Assembly: GCF_009498215.1 (NCBI RefSeq)
Contig: NZ_CP043499.1
Coordinates: forward strand, 1,748,001-1,812,000
Source of the DNA: Rhizobium grahamii
Lineage (GTDB): Bacteria > Pseudomonadota > Alphaproteobacteria > Rhizobiales > Rhizobiaceae
Direction: 5' to 3'
Length of the DNA stretch: 64,000 nucleotides
Shown here: positions 14,279-58,081 of the stretch, one piece after another
Layout: every line of letters starts with the position of its first letter
How positions within the stretch are numbered: position 1 is the stretch's first letter
Translations under genes and position numbers: made by a program
Notes under the pieces: generated by a model
Database searches by the model: none
What the model was told of the DNA's origin: nothing
The model's input: only the letters and a program-made list of their open reading frames with translations

Positions 14279-15043
14279 ATGTCGTCGCCTTACGATTCCG
14301 TCCGCTATACCTCACTTAATGGCCGCAATGTTCTGATCACCGGCGGTGCGTCGGGTATTGGCGAGGAAATGGTCAAAGCCTTTGCCGGGCAAGGCGCGAG
14401 GGTGTCGTTCATCGACATCGATGCCGAGGGCGGCGCGCGCACCGCGGCGACGACGGGGGCCGAGTTCCACGCTTGCGATATTACCGATATCGATCGGTTG
14501 CGGAGCATGATCGGCGCCGTCGAAGACAGGCATGGCGCCATCGATGTACTGATCAATAACGCCGGCAAGGACGATCGTCATGCAATAGGCGATGTCGAGC
14601 CCGACTACTGGCGCCGCGCGCTCGCGCTCAATCTCGATCATCAGTTCTTTGCGACCCAGGCAGCAAGCCGCCTGATGGCAGAACAGGCTCGTGGCTCGGT
14701 CATCATGCTGGGGTCGATTTCCTGGATGCGCGGTCGCCCGGGCATGGTCGGATATACGACGGCGAAGGCGGCCATCAACGGCATGACCAAGACGCTGGCA
14801 CGTGAGCTTGGACCATCAGGAATTCGCGTCAATTGCATTGTCCCGGGTGCGATCGTCACCGAGCGGCAACTGAAGCTCTGGACCTCGCCTGAACAGAACC
14901 AGCAGTTCATCGATCTGCAGGCCCTGAAATTCCGGCTCGACGCAACGCACGTCGCTCGCATGGCGCTCTTCCTTGGTTCCGACGAGAGTGCCGGCTGCAC
15001 GGGCGCGAACTTCGTCGTCGACGCTGGCCTCACACAAAACTGA
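14279..15043 (+). CDS. SDR-family dehydrogenase (sulfoquinovose 1-dehydrogenase)
   Basis: Classical short-chain dehydrogenase, 254 residues, proposed to oxidise SQ at C1 to the lactone with NAD(P)+. Cofactor motif GGASGIG at 22-28, NNAG at 93-96, catalytic Ser near 146-148, Tyr159 and Lys163 (YTTAK). Asp at the end of the second strand (FIDID) suggests NAD+ preference. First catabolic step after glycoside cleavage; sits between the lactonase and the SQase. Confidence 0.9.
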   Translation: MSSPYDSVRYTSLNGRNVLITGGASGIGEEMVKAFAGQGARVSFIDIDAEGGARTAATTGAEFHACDITDIDRLRSMIGAVEDRHGAIDVLINNAGKDDRHAIGDVEPDYWRRALALNLDHQFFATQAASRLMAEQARGSVIMLGSISWMRGRPGMVGYTTAKAAINGMTKTLARELGPSGIRVNCIVPGAIVTERQLKLWTSPEQNQQFIDLQALKFRLDATHVARMALFLGSDESAGCTGANFVVDAGLTQN

Positions 15044-15045
15044 GC

Positions 15046-17046
15046 ATGACGGACATGAAACTCGAGACAACACCTACCGGCTTCACCATTTCGCTGAACG
15101 GCCACGCCATCCTGCGTCACACCGCGTTGACGCCTGCATTCTATGTCGGTCACGGTGATGAGCGCATGGCCATGTATCGCGGCAACTTCGACATCGAGGA
15201 CTACGTGATCGAACGCAGCGCACTGCGTTACGCGGTCGTCGATGGTGACACGGTGACACTGTGTGAGCGCGAAGGACAGCCGACCCGTCTGGTCGTGAAG
15301 CTCACGGACACGGCACTGGAGTTCTCGGCTGAAGATCCGTCGATCAACCGGTTCTGGATGCGCGTCGTTGCGGACCATGACGAGCATGTGTGGGGCGGCG
15401 GCGAGCAGATGTCCTATTTCGACATGCGCGGGCGCCGCTTCCCGCTCTGGACGTCCGAACCCGGCGTTGGCCGCGACAAGACGAGCGAGATCACTTTCAA
15501 GTCGAACGTCGAGGGCAAGGCGGGCGGAGACTACTATAACACCAACTACCCGCAGCCGACCTATATCTCGTCCCACCGATACGCCCTGCATGTCGAGACG
15601 AGCGCCTATTCGGTGTTCGATTTCCGGCGGAAGACCTTTCATGAGATCGAAGCCTGGGCAGTGCCCGAGCGTATCGAGCTCTACGCAGCAGCGACCTTCG
15701 TCGAACTGGTGGAAATTCTCTCCGCACGCTTCGGCCGGCAGCCGCAGCTGCCTGAGTGGATCTACAACGGCGCAATCATCGGTCTTAAGGACGGCACGAA
15801 CTCGTTCACCCGACTTGAGAAGATGAAGGAAGCCGGGGTCAAGGTTTCCGGTCTCTGGTGCGAGGATTGGGTTGGACTTCGCCACACATCCTTCGGCGCC
15901 CGGCTGTTCTGGGATTGGCAGGCGAATGAAGAACGCTATCCGGGTCTGCGCGAACGCATTTCCCAGCTCCACGACGAGGGCGTTCGTTTCCTGGGTTACG
16001 TCAACCCTTATCTCTGCGTCGATGGACCGTTGTTCGAGGAAGCCGAGAAAGCAGGCTACTTCGCAAAGGATGAGTTCGGTCGCACCGCCCTCGTGGACTT
16101 TGGCGAGTTCGACTGCGGCGTCGTCGACTTCACCAATTCGGCGGCGGCCGATTGGTTTGCCGATTCCGTGATCGGCGGCAAGATGCTGGACTACGGCCTG
16201 TCGGGCTGGATGGCCGATTTCGGCGAATACCTGCCGATCGACGTCGAGCTGGCAAATGGCGTCGACGCGAAGCTGATGCACAATCAATGGCCGACACTGT
16301 GGGCCGAGGTGAATGCCAAGGCGGTCGCAAGTCGCGGCAAGACCGGCGAGGCGCTCTTCTTCATGCGTGCTGGTTACACTGGGGTGCAGAAGCACTGCCC
16401 GCTTCTGTGGGGCGGCGATCAGTCGGTCGACTTCTCCCGCCACGACGGCCTTGTGACCGTCATCTGCGCCGCCCTCTCCGCCGGCCTGCTGGGCAACGCC
16501 TATCACCACTCCGATATCGGCGGATATACCAGCCTGTTTGGCAATGTTCGCACCCCCGAGCTTCTGATGCGCTGGGCCGAGATGGCAGCCTTCACACCCG
16601 TCATGCGCAGCCATGAAGGCAATCGTCCGCGCGATAACGTGCAGATCGATCAGGACCCGGAAGTGCTTGCACACTTTGCCCGCATGACCGGCATCTACGT
16701 TCATATGGCTCCCTATCTGAAAGCGCTCTCGGCCGAAGCCGCGGCCAAGGGGCTGCCGGTGCAGCGACCGCTGTTCCTGCACTATGAACACGACCGCAAT
16801 ACCTACGGGATCCAGGACAGCTACCTGTACGGCTCCGATGTGCTAGTAGCTCCGATCTGGCAGGCTGCCCAAAGCGAGCGCGCCGTCTACTTGCCGGAAG
16901 GTTCCAGCTGGACGCACGTGTGGAGCGGCGAGCAATACAGTGGCGGCAACGAGGTGACGGTTGCCTCGCCGCTCGGCGAACCTCCGGTCTTCTATCGGTC
17001 GGATTCTCCTTTCGCGGGTCGATTTGCCGAGCTGCGGACGCTCTAG
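15046..17046 (+). CDS. GH31 sulfoquinovosidase
   Basis: Retaining alpha-glycosidase, 666 residues, that frees SQ from SQ-glycerol and related sulfoquinovosides. It follows E. coli YihQ closely along its length (for example RFPLWTSEPGVGR, GGDYY, HHSDIGGY and MRSHEGNRP). Predicted nucleophile Asp391 in WMADFGEYL, acid/base Asp458 in WGGDQS. The sulfonate-recognition set is Lys248, Glu273, Arg286, Trp289 and Tyr494, the KERWY form known from Agrobacterium SQase rather than the E. coli QQRWY form. No signal peptide, so cleavage is cytoplasmic after import. Its start is three bases past the SDR stop. Confidence 0.95.
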   Translation: MTDMKLETTPTGFTISLNGHAILRHTALTPAFYVGHGDERMAMYRGNFDIEDYVIERSALRYAVVDGDTVTLCEREGQPTRLVVKLTDTALEFSAEDPSINRFWMRVVADHDEHVWGGGEQMSYFDMRGRRFPLWTSEPGVGRDKTSEITFKSNVEGKAGGDYYNTNYPQPTYISSHRYALHVETSAYSVFDFRRKTFHEIEAWAVPERIELYAAATFVELVEILSARFGRQPQLPEWIYNGAIIGLKDGTNSFTRLEKMKEAGVKVSGLWCEDWVGLRHTSFGARLFWDWQANEERYPGLRERISQLHDEGVRFLGYVNPYLCVDGPLFEEAEKAGYFAKDEFGRTALVDFGEFDCGVVDFTNSAAADWFADSVIGGKMLDYGLSGWMADFGEYLPIDVELANGVDAKLMHNQWPTLWAEVNAKAVASRGKTGEALFFMRAGYTGVQKHCPLLWGGDQSVDFSRHDGLVTVICAALSAGLLGNAYHHSDIGGYTSLFGNVRTPELLMRWAEMAAFTPVMRSHEGNRPRDNVQIDQDPEVLAHFARMTGIYVHMAPYLKALSAEAAAKGLPVQRPLFLHYEHDRNTYGIQDSYLYGSDVLVAPIWQAAQSERAVYLPEGSSWTHVWSGEQYSGGNEVTVASPLGEPPVFYRSDSPFAGRFAELRTL

Positions 17047-17048
17047 CG

Positions 17049-17818
17049 ATGGATCCGCACGGCCTGGGCATTTTGCTGCTTCTTTCAGCGGTCGCTGCGT
17101 ACTTGCAGACGCTGACGGGATTTGCATTCGGCCTCATCATGATGGGCGGGGTCGGGCTTACCGGTGTCATAGCCGTGCCCGACGCAGCCGTCCTCGTCAG
17201 CTGCCTGACATTCGTCAACGCCGCCCAGGTGCTAGCCAAAGGCTGGCGCGATATTGCCGTGCGCGAGTTCGTGCCGATCATCATTGCAAGCATTCTGATG
17301 CTTTTCATCGGCTACTGGCTGCTCGGTCTCATGGCGGCTGCTTCGATCGGCTGGCTGAAGGTCGTGCTTGGGGTGGTGATCGTGATCTCAAGTATCCAGT
17401 TGGCGATGAAACCAACGCCACTTGCCAGACTGTCGTCGGCAGGATCGTTTGCATTTTTCGGTGCCGTGGCCGGATTGATGGGGGGCTCTTCTCCACCGCC
17501 GGACCGCCGCTCGTCTATCATCTCTATCGCCAGCCATTGCCGCAGCCGACGATCCGCGAAACGCTCGTCGCCGTGTTTGCGATGAACGCCGTCATCCGTC
17601 TTGCCGTGGTGGCATTGGCGGGGGACATGCCGCAGGTCGGCTTCTGGTGGGGGCTGCTCGCGATCCCGGTCGTCATCCTGGTTACATTCGCGGCGAAGCG
17701 CTGGCCGCCGCCAATTTCGAACCTGTCGCTGCGCCGCGTGGCCTTTGGCCTTCTTCTCCTGTCGGGCCTGTCGCTCGCCTTACCCGCTCTCTTCAAGATC
17801 ATCGGAGGTCTGTCATGA
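17049..17818 (+). pseudogene. TauE/SafE-family exporter (sulfolactate export), frameshifted as sequenced
   Basis: Membrane protein of the TauE/SafE family, about 256 residues when repaired, with about eight hydrophobic spans. In sulfo-ED clusters this family is proposed to export the sulfonated end product. Residues up to MGG read in frame 0. After a six-G run at 17480-17485 the family continuation LFSTAGPPLVYHLYRQP reads in frame 2 to a stop at 17818. One extra G would restore one frame. The run also has the exact phase of a -1 slippery heptamer (G GGG GGC), but four similar missing-base breaks in this window favour a sequence error. The ATG overlaps nothing; the stop overlaps the next gene by four bases. 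Confidence 0.8.
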
Positions 17819-19281
17819 CTGCATCCACAATCCCGCTCAAGGATCCATCTCTCCTGACCGACAAGGCATTCGTTGCCGGCGAATGGATTTCTTCGCCAAC
17901 TGGCAAGACGTTTGCCGTGACAGACCCTTTTGACGGCTCTTTGATCGCAAACGTACCGGATCTCGATCGCACTGTTGTGCAGAAGGCAATCGATGCCGCT
18001 GAAGCCGCGCAGAAGCTGTGGGCGCGGAAAACGGCAAAGGAGCGCGCTCAGGTCCTGAAGCGCTGGTACGATCTGATTGTCGCGAATGCCGACGACCTGG
18101 CTCTCATCCTCACGACGGAGCAGGGCAAGCCGCTTGCCGAAGCCAAGGGCGAGGTCGTCTCGAACGCCGCCTATCTCGAATGGTTTGCCGAGGAAGCAAA
18201 GCGCATCGATGGCGACATCATTCCGGGCGCCAATCCCGGCCAGCGCATCATGGTTCTGAAGCAGCCCGTCGGAGTCTGCGCAGCGATCACGCCATGGAAC
18301 TTTCCAAACGGCATGATCACTCGCAAGGCCGGTCCTGCACTTGCCGCCGGCTGTAGCATGATCCTGAAGCCGGCGTCGCAGACGCCGCTGTCGGCATTGG
18401 CGCTTGCGGTCCTCGCCGAGCGGGCAGGTGTCCCCAAGGGCGTCTTCTCGGTTGTCACGGGCGAAGCAAAGCCGATAGGCCTCGAATTCTGCCACAATCC
18501 GAAGGTTGCGAAAATCACGTTCACCGGATCCACCGGGGTTGGCCGCTGGCTGATGAAGGAAGCAGCTGACGGCATCAAGCGCCTGTCGCTGGAACTTGGC
18601 GGCAATGCTCCGTTCATCGTCTTCGATGATGCCGACATTGATGCGGCAGTCGCTGGCGCGATGATTTCCAAGTTCCGCAACGCCGGTCAGACCTGCGTCT
18701 GCGCCAACCGCATCTATGTGCAGGAGAGCGTCGTCGAGGCCTTCACGGAAAAGCTGCTCGCAAAGGTTTCCGGGCTCAGGCTTGGCCGTGGCACCGAGGA
18801 GGGTGTCAGCCAGGGACCTCTCATCGACGAGCGCGCCGTGGCCAAGATGGAAGAGCACGTTGCCGATGCGCTCGCCAATGGCGGTAGGCTGCTTACCGGC
18901 GGCAGCAAGAGCGACCTTGGCGGCAACTTCTATCAGCCGACCGTCATCGCAGGCGTCACGCAGGCTATGAAGGTTGCCAAGGAAGAGACGTTTGCTCCGC
19001 TCGCTCCGATCATCTCCTTCAAGACAGAGGAGGACGTCATCGCGATGGCAAACGACAGCGAGTTCGGACTTGCTTCCTATTTCTACGCCCGCGACATGGC
19101 GCGGGTCTGGCGGGTTTCGGAAGCGCTCGAGGCGGGAATGGTCGGAGTCAACACCGGCATGATCGCCAACGAAATGGCGCCGTTCGGCGGGATCAAGCAG
19201 TCGGGCATGGGCCGCGAAGGCTCGAAGTACGGCATCGAAGGCTTCCTCGAGCTGAAGTACGTCTGCGTCGCGGGCATCTAG
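17815..19281 (+). CDS. Aldehyde dehydrogenase (sulfolactaldehyde dehydrogenase)
   Basis: GabD-like NAD(P)-dependent aldehyde dehydrogenase, 488 residues, expected to oxidise sulfolactaldehyde to sulfolactate. Catalytic Cys294 (GQTCVCANR), general base Glu260 (ELGGNAP), Asn162 in PWNFPN and cofactor Lys185 (LKPA) are all present. The start at 17815 is coupled to the exporter stop (ATGA). Without the SQ neighbours it would be called succinate-semialdehyde dehydrogenase. Last gene of the operon; a hairpin lies 30 bases beyond it. Confidence 0.92.
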   Translation: MTASTIPLKDPSLLTDKAFVAGEWISSPTGKTFAVTDPFDGSLIANVPDLDRTVVQKAIDAAEAAQKLWARKTAKERAQVLKRWYDLIVANADDLALILTTEQGKPLAEAKGEVVSNAAYLEWFAEEAKRIDGDIIPGANPGQRIMVLKQPVGVCAAITPWNFPNGMITRKAGPALAAGCSMILKPASQTPLSALALAVLAERAGVPKGVFSVVTGEAKPIGLEFCHNPKVAKITFTGSTGVGRWLMKEAADGIKRLSLELGGNAPFIVFDDADIDAAVAGAMISKFRNAGQTCVCANRIYVQESVVEAFTEKLLAKVSGLRLGRGTEEGVSQGPLIDERAVAKMEEHVADALANGGRLLTGGSKSDLGGNFYQPTVIAGVTQAMKVAKEETFAPLAPIISFKTEEDVIAMANDSEFGLASYFYARDMARVWRVSEALEAGMVGVNTGMIANEMAPFGGIKQSGMGREGSKYGIEGFLELKYVCVAGI

Positions 19282-19311
19282 TTCGCCATCCACCTTGCGC
19301 AAATGACGAAC

Positions 19312-19335
19312 GGCAGCCGGCAAAGGTCGGCTGCC
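19312..19335 (+). terminator. Hairpin after the SQ operon
   Basis: Perfect 8-bp GC-rich stem (19312-19319 with 19328-19335), 8-base loop, followed by CCCTAG rather than a T-run. Weak or Rho-assisted terminator between the aldehyde dehydrogenase gene and glpK. Confidence 0.5.
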
Positions 19336-19418
19336 CCCTAGACGATGCCGCAAGGCCGCTGGCCGACTAGTTTTCAAGCATCGCATCGTCTTCTTGAACG
19401 CCCGAACGGAATTGGAAG

Positions 19419-20920
19419 ATGAAGAACGGCTATATCCTGGCAGTTGATCAAGGCACGACGTCCACGCGATCCATCGTGTTTTCCCCTGACTTCAAGGCGA
19501 AGGGGGCCGATCAGCAGGAATTTCCGCAGCAGTTTCCGCGGTCCGGTTGGGTCGAGCACGATCCGGAAGACTTGTGGCGGACAACCGTCGAGACAGCGCG
19601 CGGCGCAATTGCCAATGCCGGCCTCACGGCAACTGAGATTGCCGCAATCGGCATTACCAACCAGCGTGAAACAACTGTTGTCTGGGATCGGCGAACAGGC
19701 AAGGCGATTCACAACGCCATCGTATGGCAGGACCGTCGAACGGCCGACGCCTGCGATCGTCTTCGTCGCGATGGGGCGGCTGAGCTTATTGCCAGCCGTT
19801 CGGGCCTCCTCATCGACGCCTATTTCTCGGCCAGCAAGATCGCATGGATCCTCGACAATGTCGCTGGCGCGCGTGCTGCTGCCGATGGCGGCCACTTGGC
19901 ATTCGGAACTGTCGATAGCTGGCTCGTCTATCGCCTGACGGGCGGCAGAAAGCATGTGACCGATATCACCAATGCTTCCCGCACGATGCTATGCGACATC
20001 GCAACCGGTCAGTGGGACGAGGAACTGCTGCAATGCTTCAGCATCCCCCGTTCCATTCTGCCTGAGATCCTCGACAACGTTGACAGCTTCGGGATTACAG
20101 AACGCAGCATCCTTGGTGCCGAGATTTCGATCCGCGGTGTTGCCGGCGACCAGCATGCATCGCTGATCGGGCAGGCGTGCTTCGAGCCAGGAATGATGAA
20201 GGCGACCTATGGCACCGGTTGCTTTGCGTTACTTAATACCGGGAGTGAGCGGATCACGTCCAAAAACCGGCTGTTGACGACGATTGGCTACAAGATCGGA
20301 CCGGAAATCACCTATGCGCTGGAAGGCTCGATCTTCGTCGCCGGTGCCGCCATCCAGTGGTTGCGCGATGGTCTTGGCATAATTTCCAATGCCGGCCAGA
20401 GTGCCGAGCTGGCGGCAAAGGCCGATGCCCAGCAACAGATCTATCTCGTTCCGGCCTTCACCGGTCTCGGTGCGCCCTGGTGGGATCCGTCGGCGCGAGC
20501 CTCGTTGTTCGGCATGACACGAAATTCGGGTCCCGCTGAACTGGCGCGCGCGGCCCTCGACTCCATATGCCTGCAGACCTACGACCTGATGCACGCAATG
20601 AAGGGCGATTGGCCGGAGGCGTCGTTGTCCCTCTTGCGGGTCGACGGCGGCGTCTCGAAGAATGATTGGGCAATGCAGCGGCTTGCCAATATCGTCGGCG
20701 TTGGTGTGCAGCGGGCGCAGTCGGCCGAAAGCACCGCACTCGGAGCGGCATGGTTGGCCGGCTATGGGCAGGGTGCTGGCCTGAACCGAGCCGCTTTGCC
20801 ACGGAATGGGTGGCCGGCGAAAGCTTTGCACCTTCCACCGATACCGAATGGAACCGTGCGCTCGTCAGGGGATGGGAAGCTGCCGTGCGTGCGACGATTC
20901 AATTTGCCGCGCACGCCTAA
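19419..20920 (+). CDS. glpK: Glycerol kinase, 3' frameshift as sequenced
   Basis: FGGY-family kinase that phosphorylates glycerol to glycerol 3-phosphate. DQGTTSTR (residues 10-17), the [10 protein letters not shown] and WQDRRT segments, YGTGCFAL and the LRVDGG ATP-site motif are all typical. The in-frame product runs on to 20960 with an unrelated tail. The usual GlpK ending ([13 protein letters not shown] to IQFAAHA) reads in another frame to a stop at 20920, so one base seems missing near 20785-20800. It lies 137 bases after the SQ operon on the same strand. SQase releases glycerol from SQ-glycerol, so a linked role is plausible. Confidence 0.9.
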
Positions 20921-20925
20921 CGATG

Positions 20926-20943
20926 TCCGGGCGTATGCCCGGA
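20926..20943. terminator. Hairpin between convergent glpK and M24 peptidase
   Basis: Perfect 7-bp stem TCCGGGC/GCCCGGA with a GTAT loop, placed between the two convergent stops. No T-run. Confidence 0.5.
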
Positions 20944-20972
20944 TCCGTTCGCAACGATGATCGGCTTTCGGC

Positions 20973-22767: not shown

Positions 22768-23598
22768 TCACCCTAGCTTCGCGAGTGAACGCAAATGTTC
22801 AACTGTCGTCGTCGGAAAGCCGAAGAACTCGAGATAGGCGGGAATTTGCTCGAACAGCATGTCCGTTCCAACTTGATAGTCGCAGCCAAGCGCCTTGGCG
22901 GCCTGCAGAAGCGGCGTCATCTGCTCCTTCATGACAACCTCGCCAACGAACGTCGAGGAAGCAAGGCGGGAGACGTCGAAGGGAAGCGGATCATTCTTCT
23001 GCATGCCGAGCGGCGTCGCGTTGACGATAATGTCGAAGCCATCTGGATCATTTGAGCCGGTCGTGACGTGAACGCTGGGGTAATGTGTTCGAAGTCGCTC
23101 CGCCAGTCCCGCCATCGATCCGCTGTCGGGATCAAAAAGCGCGATCCTGCCCACACCGGCATTTGCAAGCGACGCCGCGATCGCGGAGCCGACGCCGCCC
23201 GCGCCGGCGATAAGGACACTGGCGCCGGAGACTTTCCGGCCCTTTCGCAGAAGTCCACGTACGAAACCTTCGCCATCGAACATGTCGCCGATCAGTTCAC
23301 CTTCCGGTCCGAGGCGGACTGCATTGCATGCCCCGGCAACCTTGGCATTGGTCGACGTCCGATCGAGCAGCCGCATCGTCGTGACCTTGTGCGGCATCGT
23401 GATCAGCGCACCGTGGATATTAGAAAGCCGGAAAACAAGTTTCAGAAACGAAGCATAGTCGGCTGGCTTGCATCCCATCGGCACGACCACGGCATCGATG
23501 CCGGCCTGTTCGAAATAGGGATTGTATATCAGCGGCGCCTTGAACGCCTCCGTGGGATAACCGAGGTGCGCGATGAGTTTCGTTGTACCGGTAATCAT
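22768..23598 (-). CDS. Shikimate dehydrogenase-like NAD(P) oxidoreductase (AroE/YdiB family)
   Basis: Two-domain AroE-family protein, 276 residues, placed to oxidise a shikimate- or quinate-like compound. Catalytic Lys71 (TMPHK) and Asp108 (MFDGEG) and the dinucleotide loop GAGGVGSA (131-138) are kept. The pair of serines that grip the shikimate carboxylate in AroE (SxSP) are replaced by Phe19 and Ala21 (FKAP), so the substrate may differ. It closes an operon with an ABC importer and an AroQ homologue, divergent from a dehydroshikimate dehydratase. A catabolic role is likelier than aromatic biosynthesis. Confidence 0.85.
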   Translation of the reverse strand: MITGTTKLIAHLGYPTEAFKAPLIYNPYFEQAGIDAVVVPMGCKPADYASFLKLVFRLSNIHGALITMPHKVTTMRLLDRTSTNAKVAGACNAVRLGPEGELIGDMFDGEGFVRGLLRKGRKVSGASVLIAGAGGVGSAIAASLANAGVGRIALFDPDSGSMAGLAERLRTHYPSVHVTTGSNDPDGFDIIVNATPLGMQKNDPLPFDVSRLASSTFVGEVVMKEQMTPLLQAAKALGCDYQVGTDMLFEQIPAYLEFFGFPTTTVEHLRSLAKLG

Positions 23599-23660
23599 GT
23601 CATTGAACTCTTGGATGAACCCGATCGTCCGGATCGGGCCGACGGCGCGATGGGCTCGAT

Positions 23661-24425
23661 CTAGTTGCGCAGGATCTCTCCGAGAAACTTGCGCGTCCGC
23701 TCATGTCGCGGGTTGGTGAAGAACTCCGCTGGTGGCGCTTCCTCGACGACTGCGCCGCTCGCCATGAAGATCACCCTGTCGGCCACCTGGCGCGCAAAAC
23801 CCATCTCATGCGTGACGCAGATCATCGTCATTCCCTCTTCGGCAAGGCTGATCATCGTGTCGAGCACCTCCTTGACCATCTCCGGATCGAGGGCGGACGT
23901 TGGTTCGTCGAACAGCATTATCTTCGGCCGCATGCAAAGGGCTCGCGCGATGGCGACGCGCTGCTGCTGGCCGCCGGAAAGCTGCAAAGGGTACTTGTTG
24001 GCCTGTTCGAGAATCTTGACCCGGCCGAGCAGCGAGCGGGCGCGCTCCTCGGCCTCCGCCTTGCCAAGACCAAGGGCGCGCATCGGCGCCAGCATGCAAT
24101 TCTGCAGGACAGTCAGGTGCGGGAAGAGATTAAACTGCTGGAACACCATACCCACCTCGCGGCGAATGGCGTCGATTGCCTTCGACTGGTTGCCCAGGAG
24201 AATGCCGCCGACCCGGATTTCCCCCTTCTGGTAGGTCTCGAGATGGTTGATGCAGCGGATGAGCGTGGATTTTCCGCTGCCGGAAGGTCCGCACAAAACG
24301 ATCTTCTCGCCCTTGTGGACGGACATGTTGATGTCGTGGAGCGCGTGAAACGCGCCATACCACTTCTCCACGTTGTTCATCGTGATCATCGTATGGCCGG
24401 TCGAAGCCAAGTCGGACGTATTCAT
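23661..24425 (-). CDS. Polar amino acid-type ABC importer ATPase
   Basis: GlnQ/HisP-type ATPase, 254 residues. Walker [11 protein letters not shown]-loop [28 protein letters not shown] signature and Walker [15 protein letters not shown] are intact. It serves the two permeases just upstream in the operon. The family normally imports amino acids, but the flanking AroE/AroQ-like genes suggest a cyclic hydroxy acid substrate (inference). Confidence 0.92.
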
Positions 24426-24467
24426 CGTTCAAGTCTCCAAAAATCGCTGGAACAGCCAGTGATCTAT

Positions 24468-25109
24468 TCAGCGCGCCGAGGCTGCGAATTTGCGTTCCAG
24501 TCGCGCGCCGACGATCGTCAGCGGGCAACACATCAGGAAGTACAGCGCACCGACGACGCCGAAGACCGTCAGCGGCTGAAAGATCTGGTTGGAAATGATG
24601 TTTCCAGCCCGCGTCAGCTCGGTGAAGCCGACGATCGAGGCCAGCGAAGTGCCCTTGATCAGCTGGACGAGAAACCCGATCGTCGCGGGCAGCGAGATGC
24701 GGAGGGCCTGTGGCAGGATGACGTCCTTCATGCGCGAGACGTATTTGAGACTAAGAGCCTTCGCGGCCTCCGTCTGTCCTCGCGGAACCGCATCGATCGA
24801 GCCTCTCCAGATTTCACCGAGATAGGCGCTTGCGTGAAGTGTCAGGCCAATGGCCACGGCGACCCATGCGTCGAGCTTCAAGCCAACGAGGGCCAGGCCG
24901 TAATAGACGACGAAGAGCTGCATGAGCAGCGGCGTGCCTTGGAAAATCGCGATGTAACCTGCGGTCAGACGCTCCAACAGCGGGATCTGGCATGTGCGTG
25001 CGAGGGCGACGCCCAGTCCAGCGATGCATCCGCAGATAAAGCCGACGGCTGACAACAGCACCGTCCACTTGAGACCAACCAGGAGGAAAACGAACTCTTC
25101 GCGACCCAT
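24468..25109 (-). CDS. Polar amino acid-type ABC permease 1
   Basis: HisM/GlnP-type permease, 213 residues, with about five hydrophobic spans and the coupling loop in VPRGQTEAAKALSLKYVSRMKDVILPQALR. Twelve bases separate it from the other permease gene. The pair should form the heterodimeric channel. Confidence 0.9.
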   Translation of the reverse strand: MGREEFVFLLVGLKWTVLLSAVGFICGCIAGLGVALARTCQIPLLERLTAGYIAIFQGTPLLMQLFVVYYGLALVGLKLDAWVAVAIGLTLHASAYLGEIWRGSIDAVPRGQTEAAKALSLKYVSRMKDVILPQALRISLPATIGFLVQLIKGTSLASIVGFTELTRAGNIISNQIFQPLTVFGVVGALYFLMCCPLTIVGARLERKFAASAR

Positions 25110-25121
25110 GGCTTTCGCTCC

Positions 25122-25790
25122 CTACTTGACCGGATAGGTGAAATAACGCGCCGAGAAGAGGGCAAAGAGGCGCATCATGACCCAGGAAATCACGAGGTAG
25201 AACAGCGTGACGGTGAAATAGACCTCGAAGCTTCGAAAGCTCTCGGACTCGATCCGTTGCGAAACCGAGGTCAGTTCGTAGGCCGAGATCGCCGACGCGA
25301 TGCTTGTCGACAGCGTCAGCAAAACAAACTGGCTGGTCAGCGATGGATAGATCGCGCGCAGCGCCGGTTTGAGAATGATCAGTCTGAAGACCTGTGCCTT
25401 GTGAAGGCCAAGGGCGAGGCCTGCTTCCATTTGTCCCTTCGGGATCGACTGGACACCGCCTCGGATAATCTCGATCGCATAGGCTCCGCCGTTGATGCCG
25501 AGCGCGATGATGGCTGTCGGTGTCGGATCGAGCCGAATTCCGGCGAGCGGCAGGGCGAAGTAAAGAAAGAAGATCTGGACCAGAAACGGCGTGTTGCGGA
25601 TCAGCTCCACGAAGGCGATCACCAGCCAGCGCACCGGTTTCAAGGCGCTGTCGCGTAGCGCCACGCCGCCGACGCCGATGATGATGGCGAGGATCATGCC
25701 GCAGATGGCGAGAAAGAAGGTGCCGAGACAGCCGAGAAGGAGGGTCGGGAGCCCGTCGATAACCGGCGAGAAGTCGAGTGTGTAGTTCAT
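25122..25790 (-). CDS. Polar amino acid-type ABC permease 2
   Basis: HisQ-type permease, 222 residues. Conserved IRNTPFLVQIFFLYF segment and coupling loop IPKGQMEAGLALGLHKAQVFR. It starts nine bases after the AroQ-like gene, within one operon. Confidence 0.9.
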   Translation of the reverse strand: MNYTLDFSPVIDGLPTLLLGCLGTFFLAICGMILAIIIGVGGVALRDSALKPVRWLVIAFVELIRNTPFLVQIFFLYFALPLAGIRLDPTPTAIIALGINGGAYAIEIIRGGVQSIPKGQMEAGLALGLHKAQVFRLIILKPALRAIYPSLTSQFVLLTLSTSIASAISAYELTSVSQRIESESFRSFEVYFTVTLFYLVISWVMMRLFALFSARYFTYPVK

Positions 25791-25799
25791 CGCGATCCC

Positions 25800-26243
25800 T
25801 CAGCCCCGTCGAACCATTCCGGCCATGGCCTGCACGGCCAGTTCATAACCATCGGCTCCGAACCCGATCAGGATTGCGGTCGCGATGCGGGAGATCAGCG
25901 ATTTGTGGTAGATCTCCTCGCGCGCATGGACATTGGAAATATGCAGCTCGATCTTCGGCGGGTCGAACGTCTTCAGGGCATCGAGCAGCGCGATCGAGGT
26001 AAATGTATAGGCGGCGGGGTTGATGATAATGCCGCATGCTTGGTTACGCGCCTGATGAACGCTTTCAACGAGTTCGCCTTCAAAGTTGCTCTGCCGGAAG
26101 TCGATCTCGAAACCGAGGCCTTGCGCCTTGCTGATGCATTTCGCCCTGATGTCGTCGAGTGTTGTCGTTCCGTAGATCGCCGGCTCGCGCTGCCCGAGCA
26201 GGTTCAAATTCGGTCCATTGAGAACGAAAATCGTTCTGGTCAT
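25800..26243 (-). CDS. Type II 3-dehydroquinate dehydratase-like protein (AroQ family)
   Basis: Flavodoxin-like dodecameric dehydratase family, 147 residues, normal length. Type II enzymes dehydrate 3-dehydroquinate to 3-dehydroshikimate. By the shared numbering Arg19, Tyr24, Asn75, His101 and Arg108 are kept. Positions 81 and 112, normally His and Arg and both substrate contacts, are Phe (AYTFTS) and Tyr (REEIYHKS). The start at 26243 follows GGAGCGAG; a longer frame to 26309 lacks a site. Operon partners suggest a catabolic paralogue on a related substrate. Confidence 0.88.
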   Translation of the reverse strand: MTRTIFVLNGPNLNLLGQREPAIYGTTTLDDIRAKCISKAQGLGFEIDFRQSNFEGELVESVHQARNQACGIIINPAAYTFTSIALLDALKTFDPPKIELHISNVHAREEIYHKSLISRIATAILIGFGADGYELAVQAMAGMVRRG

Positions 26244-26291
26244 GATCTCGCTCCATGGCGCAAGGCAGTCTGACGGTATGAGGTGCAAGCC

Positions 26292-26318
26292 GGTTGGGCA
26301 CCGAAGCAATGCCCAACC
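26292..26318 (-). terminator. Intercistronic hairpin after binding-protein gene
   Basis: Perfect 9-bp stem (26292-26300 with 26310-26318), 9-base loop, between the binding-protein gene and the AroQ-like gene. No T-run; likely mRNA stabilisation or attenuation. Confidence 0.5.
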
Positions 26319-26352
26319 AACCGCATCGTCTTCTCGCTAAAGCGCGAAAGCG

Positions 26353-27182
26353 TCAGTTTGCGGTGAATGGAATGCCTTCGAGTGTTGCCGGGAATTCCGG
26401 AACTGGAACCTTCATCCACTTGTCGTAGACGGCCTTCAGCTCGCCGTTGCCCTTGATCTTGTCGATGAAGGTGTTGAGTGCGGCGTTGATTTCTTTCTCG
26501 CCGAGGCGTGTGCATGCGCCGTTGTAGAGCTTCTGGAACTCAAGCTTGTTCTCGAACTCGCCGGGGCGAGCCTTCTCGACGCGGTCCATGTAGAAAATGT
26601 TGCCACCGAGAGCCTGTACCTGTCCGGATGCAAGTGCCTGGACGCTGGCCGCATCGCCGTCGAAGCGCCGGATCGTCGCGGTTTGCGGGCATTCTTCGTG
26701 ACCTGAGTGTCCTGGGCCGCGCCCTTGGCGACGCCGATCGTCAGGCTCGCCATGTCCTCGTTCGTCTTGATCGGCATTGACTTCGGTCCGATCAGCACGA
26801 TCGCATTGGCGACATAGGGTTTGCTGAACTGCACCGCCTTGGCGCGGTCCGGCAGCATTGCCATCGTCGCAAACAACACGTCGACGCGTCCGGTGGTCAG
26901 GGCAGGAATGCGGTTGTTGACCTCGAGCGGAACGAATTCGACCGGAACGCCGAGTTCCTTCCCGAACAGGGTTGCGATGTCGGCGTCGAGACCGTCCTGC
27001 TTGCCAGCGCTGGTGACGAAACCCCATGGCGGGTTGTCGCCCTGAATTCCGACGATCAGCTTGCCTCTCGCCTTGATTTCATCCGGCGTGATTGCCGCTG
27101 CCGGTCGGGAAAGTCCGACCGCCGTCATGAGAGCTACGGCGCCCAGCATTGCGTTGCGGCGCGTCAGCATCGATTTGAACAT
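26353..27182 (-). pseudogene. Polar amino acid-type ABC substrate-binding protein, frameshifted as sequenced
   Basis: Family 3 solute-binding protein, 276 residues if one base is restored. It starts MFKSMLTRRN after GGAGGAGG, with a signal peptide ending PAAA. Frame 1 reads through DTQVTKNA and then loses homology. The continuation TATIRRFDGDAASVQAL to the end at 26353 lies in another frame, so a base is missing near 26688-26697 (a three-C run on the coding strand). No decay is visible on either side. It is first in the AroQ/permease/ATPase/AroE operon. Confidence 0.82.
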
Positions 27183-27293
27183 TGTTTCCTCCTCCGTTTG
27201 ACGGTCGCGTGGCTTGGCGGGCCTGCGCTCCTCTGACCGTAGGCCCGCATTGTTGTCAGAGGAGGCGACCGAAGGCAACATAGTTTTTATAAA

Positions 27294-27339
27294 TCGTATG
27301 AGATTTTCTATTTAACCAACTGAATTGAAATTCTCACGA
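27294..27339. promoter_or_regulatory. AT-rich divergent promoter region with imperfect inverted repeat
   Basis: TCGTATGAGATTTTC (27294-27308) faces GAAATTCTCACGA (27327-27339) as an imperfect inverted repeat in the gap between the divergent binding-protein and dehydratase genes. It is a plausible shared operator. No regulator gene is adjacent. Confidence 0.35.
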
Positions 27340-27424
27340 TATTCGACATAATGTCTTTAGGCGGCGGTAGCAGGATCACTGCTTTGGGCCGCGCGCACGA
27401 ATTTCCGGCGAGAAAGGCTTGGCC

Positions 27425-29314
27425 ATGAAGACCTCAATTGCGACGGTAACCTTGAGCGGCGAGCTTCCGGAGAAGCTGGAGGCGATTGCCCGGGCGGGCT
27501 TCGACGGCGTCGAGATATTCGAGAACGACTTTCTAGCCTTTGACGGCAGTCCGGCCGACGTCGGCAGGATGGTGCGCGATCTCGGAATGCAGATCACGCT
27601 GTTCCAGCCCTTCCGCGATTTCGAAGGCATGCCGGAGCCGCTGCGCTCGCGAACCTTCGATCGCGCCGAGCGCAAGTTTGATGTCATGCAAGAGCTCGGA
27701 ACGGACCTCGTCCTCGTTTGCTCGAATGTCTCGCCGGCAGCACTCGGTGGCATCGACCGCGCGGTCGCGGACTTCCACGAGCTGGGTGAACGTGCGGCAA
27801 AGCGGGGGCTGAGAGTGGGCTACGAAGCCTTGGCGTGGGGGCGATATATCAATGACCACCGCGATGCCTGGGAAATAGTTCGCCGCGCCAACCATCCGAA
27901 CGTCGGGCTCATTCTCGACAGCTTTCATTCGCTGTCCCGCAAGATCGAGGTCGATTCCATCCGCTCCATACCGAAGGACAAGATCTTCATCGTCCAGCTC
28001 GCGGATGCGCCGCTGATCGACATGGACCTGCTCTACTGGAGCCGTCATTTCCGCAATATGCCCGGTGAAGGCGATCTTCCCGTTACCGCTTTCACCGAGG
28101 CGGTCGCGTCCACCGGATATGACGGCTACTTCTCGCTTGAGATATTCAACGATCAGTTTCGAGGCGGCTCAACGCGCGCGGTCGCTGCCGACGGCCATCG
28201 CTCGCTGATCTACCTTGCTGACCAGGTGCGCGCGAAGACGCAAACCCTGATCGGAGCGGCCATGCCCAAGCGCGCGGTCGTCACCGGTGTCGGGTTCGTG
28301 GAATTCGCGACAGATGAGGATGAGGCCGGCGATCTGATCGCTCTGCTCAAAACGCTCGGTTTCCGGCTTGCCGCCAAACACCGTTCCAAGAAGGTCAGCC
28401 TGTTCCAGCAAGGGGAGATCAAAATCCTCGTCAACGTCGAGCCGACGGGCTTTGCAAATGCCGCCTATGCTGTCCATGGAACATTCGCCTACGCTCTGGC
28501 GCTTGTCGTCGATGATGCAGCGGCTGCCTATCAGCGTGCACTTGCACTTGATGCAGAGCCGTTTTCCCAACCGGTCGCCGAGGGTGAACTCGAGTTGCCT
28601 GCCATCCGTGGCGTGGGCGGTGGAGTGATCTATCTCATAGACGACAAGAGCGCGCTCGGGCGCTTTTCCGATATCGACTTCGAGCCGGTTACGGATAGCG
28701 ATGACAATGGTGATGCTGGCCTGCTGCACGTCGACCACGTGGCCCAGACGGTCGCGTTCGACGAGATGCTGACCTGGCTTCTGTTCTATACCTCTATCTT
28801 CGAAGCGGCGAAGACGCCGATGGTTGATATCATCGATCCGGGCGGTGTCGTGCGCAGTCAGGTCGTGGAAAGCGATAACGGCGCCCTGCGTATCACCATG
28901 AACGGCGCTGAAAATCGGCGTACGCTCGCGGGGCATTTCATCGCCGAGAAGTTCGGTTCCGGGATTCAGCACCTCGCCTTCGCGACCGATGATATTTTCG
29001 CGACCGCCCGGTCGCTGCGCGCCCAAGGCTTCAGGTCTCTCCACATATCGCCGAACTACTACGACGACATCGAAGCGCGGTTTGGCTTGGATCCGGATCT
29101 GACGGATCGGCTTAGGGCAGAGAATATCCTTTATGATCGGGATGACGGCGGCGAGTATTTTCAGCTCTACAGCGGAACCTATGGCGAAGGCTTCTTCTTC
29201 GAAGTTGTCGAGCGTCGCGGTTATCGCGGCTACGGCGCTCCAAACGCGATTTTCCGTATCGCCGCCCTGAAAAAACAGATGCGCCCTGACGGCGTGCCGA
29301 AGGATGCCGGATAG
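27425..29314 (+). CDS. quiC: 3-Dehydroshikimate dehydratase with C-terminal HPPD-like domain (QuiC type)
   Basis: Two-domain protein of 629 residues. The N-terminal TIM barrel (about 1-280) dehydrates 3-dehydroshikimate to protocatechuate; its metal ligands Glu134, Asp165, Gln191 and Glu239 fall where they do in Pseudomonas QuiC1. The C-terminal half (about 285-600) is a vicinal-oxygen-chelate fold like 4-hydroxyphenylpyruvate dioxygenase, with His in HVDHVAQ, His in GIQHLAF and Glu in EYFQLYSG. The ATG at 27425 is preferred to a TTG at 27419 by its GAGAAAGG spacing. Divergent from the AroQ/AroE importer operon, which would supply its substrate. Confidence 0.92.
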   Translation: MKTSIATVTLSGELPEKLEAIARAGFDGVEIFENDFLAFDGSPADVGRMVRDLGMQITLFQPFRDFEGMPEPLRSRTFDRAERKFDVMQELGTDLVLVCSNVSPAALGGIDRAVADFHELGERAAKRGLRVGYEALAWGRYINDHRDAWEIVRRANHPNVGLILDSFHSLSRKIEVDSIRSIPKDKIFIVQLADAPLIDMDLLYWSRHFRNMPGEGDLPVTAFTEAVASTGYDGYFSLEIFNDQFRGGSTRAVAADGHRSLIYLADQVRAKTQTLIGAAMPKRAVVTGVGFVEFATDEDEAGDLIALLKTLGFRLAAKHRSKKVSLFQQGEIKILVNVEPTGFANAAYAVHGTFAYALALVVDDAAAAYQRALALDAEPFSQPVAEGELELPAIRGVGGGVIYLIDDKSALGRFSDIDFEPVTDSDDNGDAGLLHVDHVAQTVAFDEMLTWLLFYTSIFEAAKTPMVDIIDPGGVVRSQVVESDNGALRITMNGAENRRTLAGHFIAEKFGSGIQHLAFATDDIFATARSLRAQGFRSLHISPNYYDDIEARFGLDPDLTDRLRAENILYDRDDGGEYFQLYSGTYGEGFFFEVVERRGYRGYGAPNAIFRIAALKKQMRPDGVPKDAG

Positions 29315-49115: not shown

Positions 49116-49790
49116 TCAGGGAAGCCGGCCGCTTTGGAGCACGTGCTCGACGCCGCTTCGGACGTGCCTGTGGACGACCGCACGCGCGCCGTCGATATCG
49201 CGTTTAAGCGCAAGTTCGAACAGCAGCTTGTGGTCGTCGACGACGGCTTGTCCTCGAAAGCTGCGCGCGAGCATATGGTAGCGAAGAAAGCGGTCGAAGA
49301 CCGACGAGAGGGTCGCCATCAAGGTTGCGGAATTGCAGGCGGAGACGATTGCCTGGTGGAATTCCCAGTCGTATCGAACCCAATCCATGGTGCGCGACGC
49401 ATCACCGGCCAACAGTTTTCTCTCTGCGGCCGTGAGCTTGTGATAGGCGGCGACGATCCGGCCCTCCCATTCGAGATTGCCGGCGACGAAGGACAGGCCG
49501 ATCGCGTGGGACTCGAGGACCGTTCGGAGATCGGCCAGTTCAGCAAGCTCCTGGCGTGACGCCGGACTTACCTCGAAGCCGCGCTGTCCTTCGGCCACGA
49601 CGAGGTTTTCGGTCGTCAGTCGGCTCAGTATCTCCCGCAATGATGAAATACTGATCGAGTAGCGCTCCTTTGCCTGTTCGAGCTTGATCTTGGCGCCCGG
49701 GGCAAGGACGCCTGCGATGATGTCCTGCCGGATCTGTCGGAAGACGACATCACTCACGGTCTCGGCAGGTGCGCTCAACGGCTTCAGCAT
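49116..49790 (-). CDS. GntR-family regulator, FCD type (tandem copy 1)
   Basis: 224 residues: N-terminal GntR winged helix (about 12-75) and all-helical FCD effector domain with metal-type His residues (RYDWEFHQAI and the C-terminal HRHVRSG). It is clearly paralogous to the next gene upstream: long matching stretches such as VVAEGQRGFEVSP and RYDWEFHQA. No obvious target operon adjoins it. Confidence 0.9.
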   Translation of the reverse strand: MLKPLSAPAETVSDVVFRQIRQDIIAGVLAPGAKIKLEQAKERYSISISSLREILSRLTTENLVVAEGQRGFEVSPASRQELAELADLRTVLESHAIGLSFVAGNLEWEGRIVAAYHKLTAAERKLLAGDASRTMDWVRYDWEFHQAIVSACNSATLMATLSSVFDRFLRYHMLARSFRGQAVVDDHKLLFELALKRDIDGARAVVHRHVRSGVEHVLQSGRLP

Positions 49791-49830
49791 GACATTTCCC
49801 GATCCCTGTAAAGGTGGAGCACCATTCTTC

Positions 49831-50532
49831 TCAGGGGAGCGGTCCCTTGGCCAGTGCGTGCTCCACTCCGCCCTGGATATGCGCGACCAATATCATCTTC
49901 GCAGTCTCGCCATCGCGCTTGAGGGCCGCGTCGAGCAGATGCTGGTGTTCCTGTGCGGCGACCGCGCCACGATAGGAGAGCGCTACCATCTGATAGCGCA
50001 GGTATTTGTCGAAGACGGCCGCGTGTGCCTCCATCAGCAGCTTTGAGCCGCAGGCCGAAATCAACGCCTGATGAAATTCCCAGTCGTACCGCTTCCATTC
50101 TTCCGCGTGGCTGGTGTCACCCGACGCCATCGCTTGCTCCATGCGTGCCAGCTTGTAGTGCGCGGACACAAGCCGCGCTTCCCACTCCATCTCGCCGCGG
50201 GCAAACGACTGCTCGAGCGCATGAGTCTCCAGAAGCAGGCGCAGCTCGGCTATCTCCTTCAAATCCGCAACGGACATGGGGGAGACCTCGAAACCGCGCT
50301 GGCCCTCGGCGACGACAAGGCCCTCCGATGACAGCCGGTTGAGTATCTCGCGCAGAGTACTGATGCTCGTGTCGTATGCCGTCTTCAGGTTATCGAGTTT
50401 CAATTTCTGGCCTGGCGGCAGACGGCCAAAAAGAATGTCGGCCCGAATCCTGCGATAGCTGCTTTCTGCAATGGTTTCGGTGGATGTTTCCTGGGGCAAT
50501 GAGATTCTCTTTGAGATTTGGCTTTTTATCAT
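49831..50532 (-). CDS. GntR-family regulator, FCD type (tandem copy 2)
   Basis: 233 residues, the same architecture as the neighbour 40 bases downstream, with RYDWEFHQALISACGSK and a C-terminal AHIQGGVEHAL. The pair looks like a tandem duplication followed by divergence, so the two may bind related operators or heterodimerise (inference). Upstream lies about 190 bases without a gene. Confidence 0.9.
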   Translation of the reverse strand: MIKSQISKRISLPQETSTETIAESSYRRIRADILFGRLPPGQKLKLDNLKTAYDTSISTLREILNRLSSEGLVVAEGQRGFEVSPMSVADLKEIAELRLLLETHALEQSFARGEMEWEARLVSAHYKLARMEQAMASGDTSHAEEWKRYDWEFHQALISACGSKLLMEAHAAVFDKYLRYQMVALSYRGAVAAQEHQHLLDAALKRDGETAKMILVAHIQGGVEHALAKGPLP

Positions 50533-57073: not shown

Positions 57074-58081
57074 ATGTCAGGGAAACTGCGGCTTGGCGTC
57101 ATCGGCGCAGGCTTGAAGGCGGCTGAGTATGCGGCGAGCTGGGCGCTCATGCCCGAGATCGAATTCGTCGCGCTCGCCGACACGATCCCTTCCTCCCGCC
57201 AGCGCCTGATCGATGTGTGCGTTGCGGCTGGGGCCGCAGAGCCGCGCAGCTTCGATGACTACCGGGAGATGCTGGCGACTTGCCGTGATGATCTGGACAT
57301 CGTTTACGTCTCCACGCCGCACGCTTTTCATGGAGAGCAGGCAACGGCGGTCGCGGAAGCCGGGCTCGACCTTTTCCTTGAGAAGCCTATGGTGACGACG
57401 GTTGCTGAGGCGGAACGGCTGATCGCGGCGCAGAAGAAGAGCGGCGTCACCGTTGTAACTGCATTCCAGGGCGGTCTTTCGCCCCTGGTGATCGATACCC
57501 GCAGGCGCGCGCTAACCGGCGAGTTCGGGGATCTGATCGCAATCTCCGGAATGATCTGGGAAAGCTGGTCCGGGAACTACGACGGTCATTGGAAGCAGCA
57601 GCCGGAGATTTCGGGCGGCGGATTCATGTTCGATACGGGCGCGCACCTGATGAACACCGTCTGCCTGCTCGCGAATTCGGATTTTGAGAGCGTGTCGGCG
57701 TATATGAACAATCATGGCAAGAAGGTCGACATCGCTACGGCCGTTTCCGCCCGCCTGAAGAACGGCGCGCTGGCGACGCTGACGGCTGCCGGCGAAGGTC
57801 CTCCCGGTTGTGCCTCCTACATCACTTTTTTCTATTCGAAGGCAATCGTTCGCATCGATGCCTGGGGCGGATGGCGGGAGATCAGCGTCGGGCGCAATGC
57901 CGAACCGCGCGAAGAGGCGGAAATTCTCGGAAATCCGATGAAAAACTTCCTCGCCATTCGCGCCGGGGCGATTGAGAACACCGGCTCCGTTGAAATGGGC
58001 CTGCGATTCGCTAGGCTCTGGGACGCAATCAAGGAATCGGCTGCGGCAGACGGGGCGCCCGTCAGGATCGTCGCGCCATAG
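57074..58081 (+). CDS. Gfo/Idh/MocA-family dehydrogenase (ThuB-like)
   Basis: 335-residue NAD(P)-dependent sugar dehydrogenase. Rossmann loop GVIGAGLKAAEYA, cofactor motif VSTPHAFHGEQA and the EKPMVTTVAEAERLI segment with the catalytic Lys. Divergent from the importer/ThuA operon. By analogy with ThuB it may oxidise an imported disaccharide at C3 for the ThuA proteins to act on (inference). It shares the operator at 57036. Confidence 0.88.
   Translation: MSGKLRLGVIGAGLKAAEYAASWALMPEIEFVALADTIPSSRQRLIDVCVAAGAAEPRSFDDYREMLATCRDDLDIVYVSTPHAFHGEQATAVAEAGLDLFLEKPMVTTVAEAERLIAAQKKSGVTVVTAFQGGLSPLVIDTRRRALTGEFGDLIAISGMIWESWSGNYDGHWKQQPEISGGGFMFDTGAHLMNTVCLLANSDFESVSAYMNNHGKKVDIATAVSARLKNGALATLTAAGEGPPGCASYITFFYSKAIVRIDAWGGWREISVGRNAEPREEAEILGNPMKNFLAIRAGAIENTGSVEMGLRFARLWDAIKESAAADGAPVRIVAP

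Follow-up and report, generated by a model that had tools for sequence, protein, structure and literature searches.

Organization of the gene cluster

The window analysed here, a stretch of 64,000 nucleotides from Rhizobium grahamii (assembly GCF_009498215.1, contig NZ_CP043499.1, positions 1,748,001 to 1,812,000), contains a gene cluster at positions 22768-29314 that encodes an AroE-like dehydrogenase, an AroQ-like type II dehydroquinase, an ATP-binding cassette (ABC) importer and a QuiC-like protein. The minus strand carries, in the order of transcription, the genes of the binding protein, the AroQ-like protein, permease A, permease B, the ATPase and the AroE-like protein; the QuiC-HPPD fusion gene is divergent on the plus strand. 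These features, and a pair of regulator genes elsewhere in the window, are as follows.

22768..23598, minus strand: AroE-like dehydrogenase of the FKAP type (F19, A21, L65, D156; catalytic K71/N92/D108; closest solved chain by sequence 4k28, E 4.8e-45)
23661..24425, minus strand: ABC importer ATPase, polar amino acid type (86% to RL_RS30155 of R. johnstonii 3841)
24468..25109, minus strand: ABC importer permease B
25122..25790, minus strand: ABC importer permease A
25800..26243, minus strand: AroQ-like type II dehydroquinase of the F81/Y112 type (reading frame also open from an upstream TTG at 26309)
26353..27182, minus strand: importer solute-binding protein (frame broken near 26.6-26.7 kb; open in the near-identical NZ_CP044010.1)
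27425..29314, plus strand: QuiC-like 3-dehydroshikimate dehydratase fused to an HPPD-like domain (domain and full-length structure-chain match)
49119..50532, minus strand: two GntR-type regulators (homologues adjoin QuiC in locus L001 and in R. johnstonii 3841)

The window genome (5.89 Mb, two contigs) encodes an ordinary AroE (HSRSP motif, L082) and an ordinary AroQ (His81/Arg112, or H/R; L085) elsewhere, so the AroE-like and AroQ-like proteins of the cluster are most likely catabolic paralogues and a biosynthetic role is unlikely. Public records name their genes shikimate dehydrogenase and type II 3-dehydroquinate dehydratase, yet the substrate contacts differ from those of the described enzymes. 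The similarity fetch of AroE loci comprised the best 80 of 581 confirmed relatives plus further loci from other genomes, and close relatives of the window are over-represented in it. Loci are cited below by their L numbers.

The FKAP-type AroE-like protein

A sequence-only reading of this DNA had noted that Phe19-Lys-Ala21-Pro stands in place of the SxSP motif and that the catalytic residues are kept. Translation and DNA agree exactly on F19 (codon 23542-23544), K20, A21 (codon 23536-23538) and P22 on the minus strand; K71, N92 and D108 are present, and presumably correspond to K65, N86 and D102 of the Escherichia coli enzyme. The pocket holds further changes that the reading had not listed: L65, where ordinary AroE has Asn (we take this position to be E. 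coli N59), F107 beside the catalytic Asp, and D156 at the cofactor motif. The motif xF[KR][AS]P was used to define the FKAP-type set, which takes in 118 of the 141 distinct AroE-like sequences longer than about 200 residues. F19 is thus present in 118/118 by construction; L65, K71, N92, D108 and D156 were each found in 118/118 as well, and position 21 is Ala in 108/118 and Ser in 10/118. The reading had also considered that the missing serines might align elsewhere. Ser or Thr does occupy position 18 in 112/118 of the set; the window protein is among the six with Ala, and this residue is not a fixed substitute for the lost serine. Chance or misalignment was ruled out as the source of the motif, as the Pro anchor and flanks align and the neighbouring pocket traits are conserved.

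A quick tree of 69 thinned AroE rows placed all 45 FKAP rows under one branch (SH-aLRT 98), along with a single other row, L183, which is truncated at its N terminus by a contig end. In rows near this branch Val replaces the first serine; 4k28 is among them, on a long and poorly placed branch. The FKAP type was found in 21/297 order-level genomes and in 15/247 evenly drawn family-level genomes. A sample of 299 genomes from the phylum added nine from other classes (58-67% identity), with the motif readable in eight of these.

The protein passes the Pfam model Shikimate_dh_N (54.1 vs 27 bits) and scores below the NCBIfam aroE equivalogs TIGR00507 (139.1 vs 200.2) and NF001319 (141.8 vs 252), as well as below the cut-off of PRK14027, the NAD+ quinate/shikimate dehydrogenase (94.3 vs 515). 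It lacks the SxSP carboxylate motif and reads AFKAP there. Judged by these profiles, it is a member of the shikimate dehydrogenase family (AroE/YdiB/RifI2) outside the AroE equivalog. For plant enzymes, PMC7752791 reports that Thr381Gly on its own conferred quinate dehydrogenase activity and that Ser338Gly raised this activity; NAD+ use is associated there with an Asp motif. The D156 of the window protein would fit NAD+ use and oxidation. We take the plant Ser338 to be the second serine of SxSP, equivalent to A21 of the window; Thr381 would then be T67, which is unchanged here. FKAP loci such as L090 and L205 also contain a second, RifI2-like AroE (QVKAP, NVRLP).

The F81/Y112-type AroQ-like protein

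Phe81 (codon 26001-26003) and Tyr112 (codon 25908-25910), which had been reported where type II dehydroquinases have His and Arg, are likewise exact in translation and DNA. The catalytic residues were said to be kept, and N12, R19, Y24, N75, D88, E99, H101, S103 and R108 are all present. Among 131 distinct AroQ sequences of the fetched loci, positions 81/112 are F/Y in 78, H/R in 50, F/H in two and M/R in one; no F/R or H/Y combination occurred among them. At the nine catalytic and binding positions tested, 128 of the 131 have the standard residues, as do 77 of the 78 with F/Y. The rare variants come from two genomes for F/H (L218:9646-10107 and L219:9327-9761) and one for M/R (L217:4948), in stretches with QuiC-like genes as well.

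The AroQ tree of 84 thinned rows was built from a short alignment, with 26/81 inner branches open. All 38 F rows (36 F/Y, 2 F/H) stood under one branch (bootstrap 91, SH-aLRT 91), adjoining a 24-row H/R group (100/99) that holds many AroQs found beside an FKAP AroE. Those of L204, L205, L206 and L210, also beside an FKAP AroE, fell outside that group. From these alignments and trees, the altered residues of both proteins are conserved, clade-defining traits of real subfamilies. The F81 type was found at E 1e-55 or better in at least 3/297 order-level and at least 10/247 family-level genomes; these are lower bounds, as deeper F-type AroQs (e.g. L214-L219) score only 1e-47 to 1e-51. The class-level AroQ search supplied loci for its best places only, a biased set that yields no frequency.

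The window protein passes the type II dehydratase models PF01220 (186.8 vs 23.3), TIGR01088 (175.2 vs 169.85) and NF003806 (212.8 vs 171), although it lacks His81 and Arg112, the C5 hydroxyl contacts of type II 3-dehydroquinate dehydratase. According to PMC6011038, the C5 hydroxyl is contacted by His81 and Arg112, the C4 hydroxyl by Asp88', and the carboxylate by Asn75, Ser103 and backbone amides; a lowering of the pKa of the catalytic Tyr is further proposed for two arginines, of which Arg112 is one. The Asp88, Ser103 and Asn75 contacts are kept in the window AroQ. The F/Y pair would therefore take away the C5 contacts alone, and the Tyr at position 112 (or the His of the F/H variant) could still reach the hydroxyl.

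Importer and binding protein

The dedicated importer proposed from the sequence is borne out by linked ABC importer genes in the cluster. The window and the plasmid NZ_CP044010.1 of Rhizobium sp. BG6 align along 23,002 bases, with two gaps and not a single mismatch. Both gaps are bases missing from the window, one near 20.7 kb in a kinase-like gene (19419-20960, named by reading its translation) and the other near 26.6-26.7 kb in the binding protein, whose frame is open in the plasmid. The frame break in the window is probably a sequence error, and the two records are probably two assemblies of one strain. The corresponding binding protein of R. johnstonii 3841, RL_RS30135, is intact.

The carboxylate-site Arg is kept in all 81 distinct binding proteins that were aligned, and Asn is found where amino-acid binders have Asp; the Arg is assumed here to hold the carboxylate and the Asp to be an ammonium ligand. 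Such residues would suit a hydroxy acid more than an amino acid. Import of an amino acid or amino-cyclitol is weakened, since the usual ammonium ligands, as we assume them, are absent. The importer is present in 71 of the 78 loci with an F81-type AroQ, seven of which have no FKAP AroE; the F-type AroQ thus tracks the importer.

The QuiC-like protein and pca genes

The QuiC-like protein consists of a TIM barrel and an HPPD-like fusion with four metal-ligand positions, and aligns with 5hmq along its entire length (E 4.5e-184). Its residues E134, D165, Q191 and E239, presumably the metal ligands, align to the same letters in 5hmq, in agreement with the earlier statement that all four ligands are kept. 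In R. johnstonii 3841 the first of a series of pca genes lies three genes from AroE, and PMC4495286 lists pca genes near this cluster as the protocatechuate branch. A pcaH- or pcaG-like gene lies in the stretch of 29/118 FKAP loci (before duplicate removal), and a 3-oxoadipate:acetyl-CoA acetyltransferase near the cluster in Bosea (L072) and in a Hyphomicrobiales locus (L059). The window genome has pcaH at C2:1477578 (91%).

Neighbouring genes in the window

The GntR pair lies about 20 kb from QuiC, with sugar-transport-like and other genes between. Consecutive SDR, GH31 glycosidase-like, TauE-like, aldehyde dehydrogenase and FGGY kinase-like genes, named by reading their translations, occupy 14279-20957; the row is reminiscent of a sulfoquinovose pathway.

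Co-occurrence of the two variants

Co-occurrence was counted in 114 distinct FKAP AroE loci, the window included and five duplicates removed, with AroQ scored within the fetched stretch. An F81-type AroQ was found in 66 of them (four also with an H/R type), an H/R type only in 24, and no AroQ in the stretch in another 24, some of which are short contigs. Conversely, 66 of the 78 F81-type AroQ loci have an FKAP AroE and 12 do not. All four components (AroE, F81-type AroQ, importer and QuiC) stand together in 63/114 FKAP loci, including the window. The 247 family genomes gave both variants in 5, AroE only in 10, AroQ only in 5 and neither in 227 (Fisher p = 9e-5, kinship uncorrected); the 297 order-level genomes gave 3, 18, 0 and 276, respectively (p 3e-4, kinship uncorrected).

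The two variants are associated above random, but they are no fixed pair, and the changes were not acquired as a unit because their distributions differ. A strictly co-evolved pair is ruled out by the separate distributions in genome samples and loci. The sequence-only reading had suggested a matched catabolic subfamily, and proposed trees and co-occurrence as the check. The subfamily survives this check: each variant forms one clade, the importer is linked, QuiC is intact, and the two occur together more often than at random. The matched pair acting on a new compound does not survive it, given the loci with only an H/R AroQ (24/114) or without an FKAP AroE (12/78). Between the two options offered then, a new compound with a matched pair and quinate bound differently, the second fits better.

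Exchangeable partners in related loci

Six loci carry deep-branching F-type AroQs (L065, L214, L215, L216, L218 and L219). In L218, L219 and L215 the F81-type AroQ stands with QuiC, TRAP subunits and a dehydrogenase with an ordinary SRTP or SRSP motif. These dehydrogenases pass PRK12549 (333.5, 387.7 and 429 vs 235 bits), and that of L218, the only one of the three compared with solved structures, is closest to the quinate/shikimate dehydrogenase 3jyo (E 1.6e-61). As for the other three, L216 has QuiC and a DctM gene, L065 an FKAP AroE, and L214 none of these. The same importer family is found in L202 with QuiC and an SKTP dehydrogenase of the PRK12549 subfamily (434.4 bits; closest 3jyo, E 7.2e-70), and this genome carries an F-type AroQ on another contig (L108). 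L025, L064 and L093 combine the importer and an FKAP AroE with an ordinary H/R AroQ.

In L109, L111, L112 and L114, where no FKAP AroE was found, the importer and an F-type AroQ are accompanied by a TIM-barrel protein and a dehydrogenase of the Gfo/Idh kind; the TIM-barrel protein of L109 matches PF01261 and, weakly, QuiC (39 vs 1200 bits). All five family-sample genomes with an F81-type AroQ and no FKAP AroE have a QuiC homologue elsewhere (65-74%), and in two of them (L197 and L198) a RifI2-like QVRSP AroE lies in the stretch of QuiC. The swapping of dehydrogenases and AroQs around the same importer and QuiC would imply one ordinary chain of intermediates.

A Gfo/Idh/MocA dehydrogenase gene lies between the ATPase and AroE genes in R. 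johnstonii and other clusters (e.g. L088:15222-16289). No Gfo/Idh homologue was found in the window genome at E 1e-20, an empty answer that is weak alone; the window itself contains a 27% homologue (57074-58078). That a Gfo/Idh enzyme is an essential partner is unsupported for the window strain. With the ordinary aroE and aroQ also located separately, the FKAP AroE is the only evident dehydrogenase of the cluster.

Proposed function of the cluster

The cluster is probably an operon for the uptake and catabolism of quinate or a very close cyclohexane carboxylate, in which the altered residues would hold the ordinary substrate in a variant way. The polar-amino-acid-type ABC importer would bring the acid in, and the FKAP-type AroE would oxidise its ring C3 hydroxyl with NAD+. 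The F81-type AroQ might then dehydrate 3-dehydroquinate to 3-dehydroshikimate, which QuiC, by homology, would convert to protocatechuate for the pca enzymes encoded elsewhere in the genome. In AroQ, the contact with the C5 hydroxyl may shift from H81/R112 to the Tyr or His at position 112 beside F81; in AroE, the carboxylate serines would be replaced, as has partly happened in the plant quinate dehydrogenases. Such a binding mode is plausible because H81 and R112 sit on the C5 hydroxyl and the plant enzymes also change an AroE serine.

Several observations weigh against this assignment. The AroE pocket has hydrophobic changes (F19, A21, L65 and F107) in a number that is high for the binding of a carboxylate. 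The plant enzymes instead have Gly, and T67, taken here as the equivalent of plant T381, is unaltered; the four changes exceed what that precedent explains. The loss of Arg112 should cost activity, given its proposed role in the pKa of the catalytic Tyr. The QuiC-like protein is below the NCBIfam QuiC equivalog cut-off (683.6 vs 1200). Four of the 114 FKAP loci (L032, L066, L076 and L077) hold both F/Y and H/R AroQs, which hints at different jobs rather than full redundancy. In the fetched stretches, some of them short contigs, 24/114 FKAP loci have no AroQ and 36/114 no QuiC. Ten neighbour proteins from seven FKAP loci without AroQ showed no common theme (a sulfatase, a peptidase, a nickel transporter, an aldolase, a c-di-GMP enzyme and other unrelated kinds), and no alternative pathway emerged from them. 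Finally, PMC3333776 assigns shikimate uptake in R. leguminosarum to the MFS transporter RL4709; shikimate import therefore does not need the cluster importer, which speaks against shikimate as its main cargo. The main text of that paper contains no tag beginning pRL1100. The titles listed for the R. leguminosarum cluster, for quinate genes with transporters and for locus tags (counted back from the published pca tags) included none on the AroE, AroQ or importer genes of the cluster, with subscription literature mostly outside the scope of the search.

Two parallel branches that meet at dehydroshikimate are an unlikely arrangement, though the least unlikely of the alternatives to quinate catabolism by a single route. 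The FKAP AroE would oxidise shikimate (or both acids) and feed QuiC directly, and the importer and AroQ would handle quinate, or dehydroquinate from another enzyme. Loci with an FKAP AroE and QuiC without AroQ (e.g. L071, L080, L098, L103, L119 and L120) suggest such a division, as do the importer genes and F81-type AroQ without AroE or QuiC in the stretches of L108, L110 and L113 and the second AroE homologue in loci such as L090 and L205. The arrangement sits poorly with the 63/114 FKAP loci in which all four components stand together.

It is somewhat more doubtful that the cluster degrades a relative of quinate differing at C5 (inverted, O-acylated, O-methylated or amino), with both pockets fitted to it and QuiC expelling the C5 group to give protocatechuate. 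The F81/Y112 change replaces exactly the two residues on the C5 hydroxyl and leaves the carboxylate, C1 and C4 contacts, and AroE has Leu65 instead of Asn. The joint presence of importer and F81-type AroQ in 71/78 loci, seven without an FKAP AroE, and the four loci with both AroQ types would also agree with it. Nevertheless, the F81-type AroQ occurs with an ordinary SRTP/SRSP dehydrogenase and QuiC in three loci, and the FKAP AroE with only an ordinary AroQ in 24/114, both of which are easiest to explain by a shared ordinary intermediate; the QuiC letters aligned with the 5hmq ligand positions are also kept. A fuller version, in which the C5-modified quinate or shikimate relative comes from plant roots, the importer-AroQ unit sets the substrate, the dehydrogenase is exchangeable and QuiC expels the C5 group, is a shade less probable again. 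That the F81/Y112 AroQ has lost its dehydratase activity and is a sensor or decaying is very improbable: two substrate contacts are gone, and Arg112 is also proposed to tune the catalytic Tyr, but the nine catalytic and binding positions remain standard (128/131; 77/78 of F/Y) and the F rows form one well spread group in the tree.

The hosts of the cluster are root-associated bacteria. Should the enzymes use quinate, they would show by natural example which share of the known binding network is indispensable; should they not, they would point to an unrecognised root compound.

Comparison with known systems

The closest solved chain to the window AroE is 4k28, listed as a shikimate dehydrogenase family protein, which also lacks the first serine (QVKSP) and lies on the same side of the tree on its long branch; however, it has Val at position 19 rather than Phe, Ser at 21 and Val at 65. 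We take 4k28 to be RifI2 of Pseudomonas putida, an enzyme with NAD+ use and weak shikimate activity. Quinate operons with QuiC and a dehydrogenase like 3jyo (presumably the quinate/shikimate dehydrogenase of Corynebacterium glutamicum) fill the same pathway slots as the window cluster: dehydrogenase, AroQ, QuiC and importer. The dehydrogenases of L218 and L202 are closest to 3jyo, and those of L219 and L215 belong to the same NCBIfam subfamily. This type has the ordinary SxTP/SxSP motif, whereas the alignment between the window AroE and 3jyo starts only at residue 60 (E 6.5e-25).

The window AroQ shares family and catalytic residues with 1d0i, which we assume to be the Streptomyces coelicolor type II dehydroquinase, and with the Mycobacterium tuberculosis enzyme, but has F81 and Y112 for their His and Arg. 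The window QuiC remains under the cut-off of the QuiC equivalog family; it resembles 5hmq (listed as 4-hydroxyphenylpyruvate dioxygenase, and taken here to be P. putida QuiC) over its full length, with the metal-ligand positions kept.

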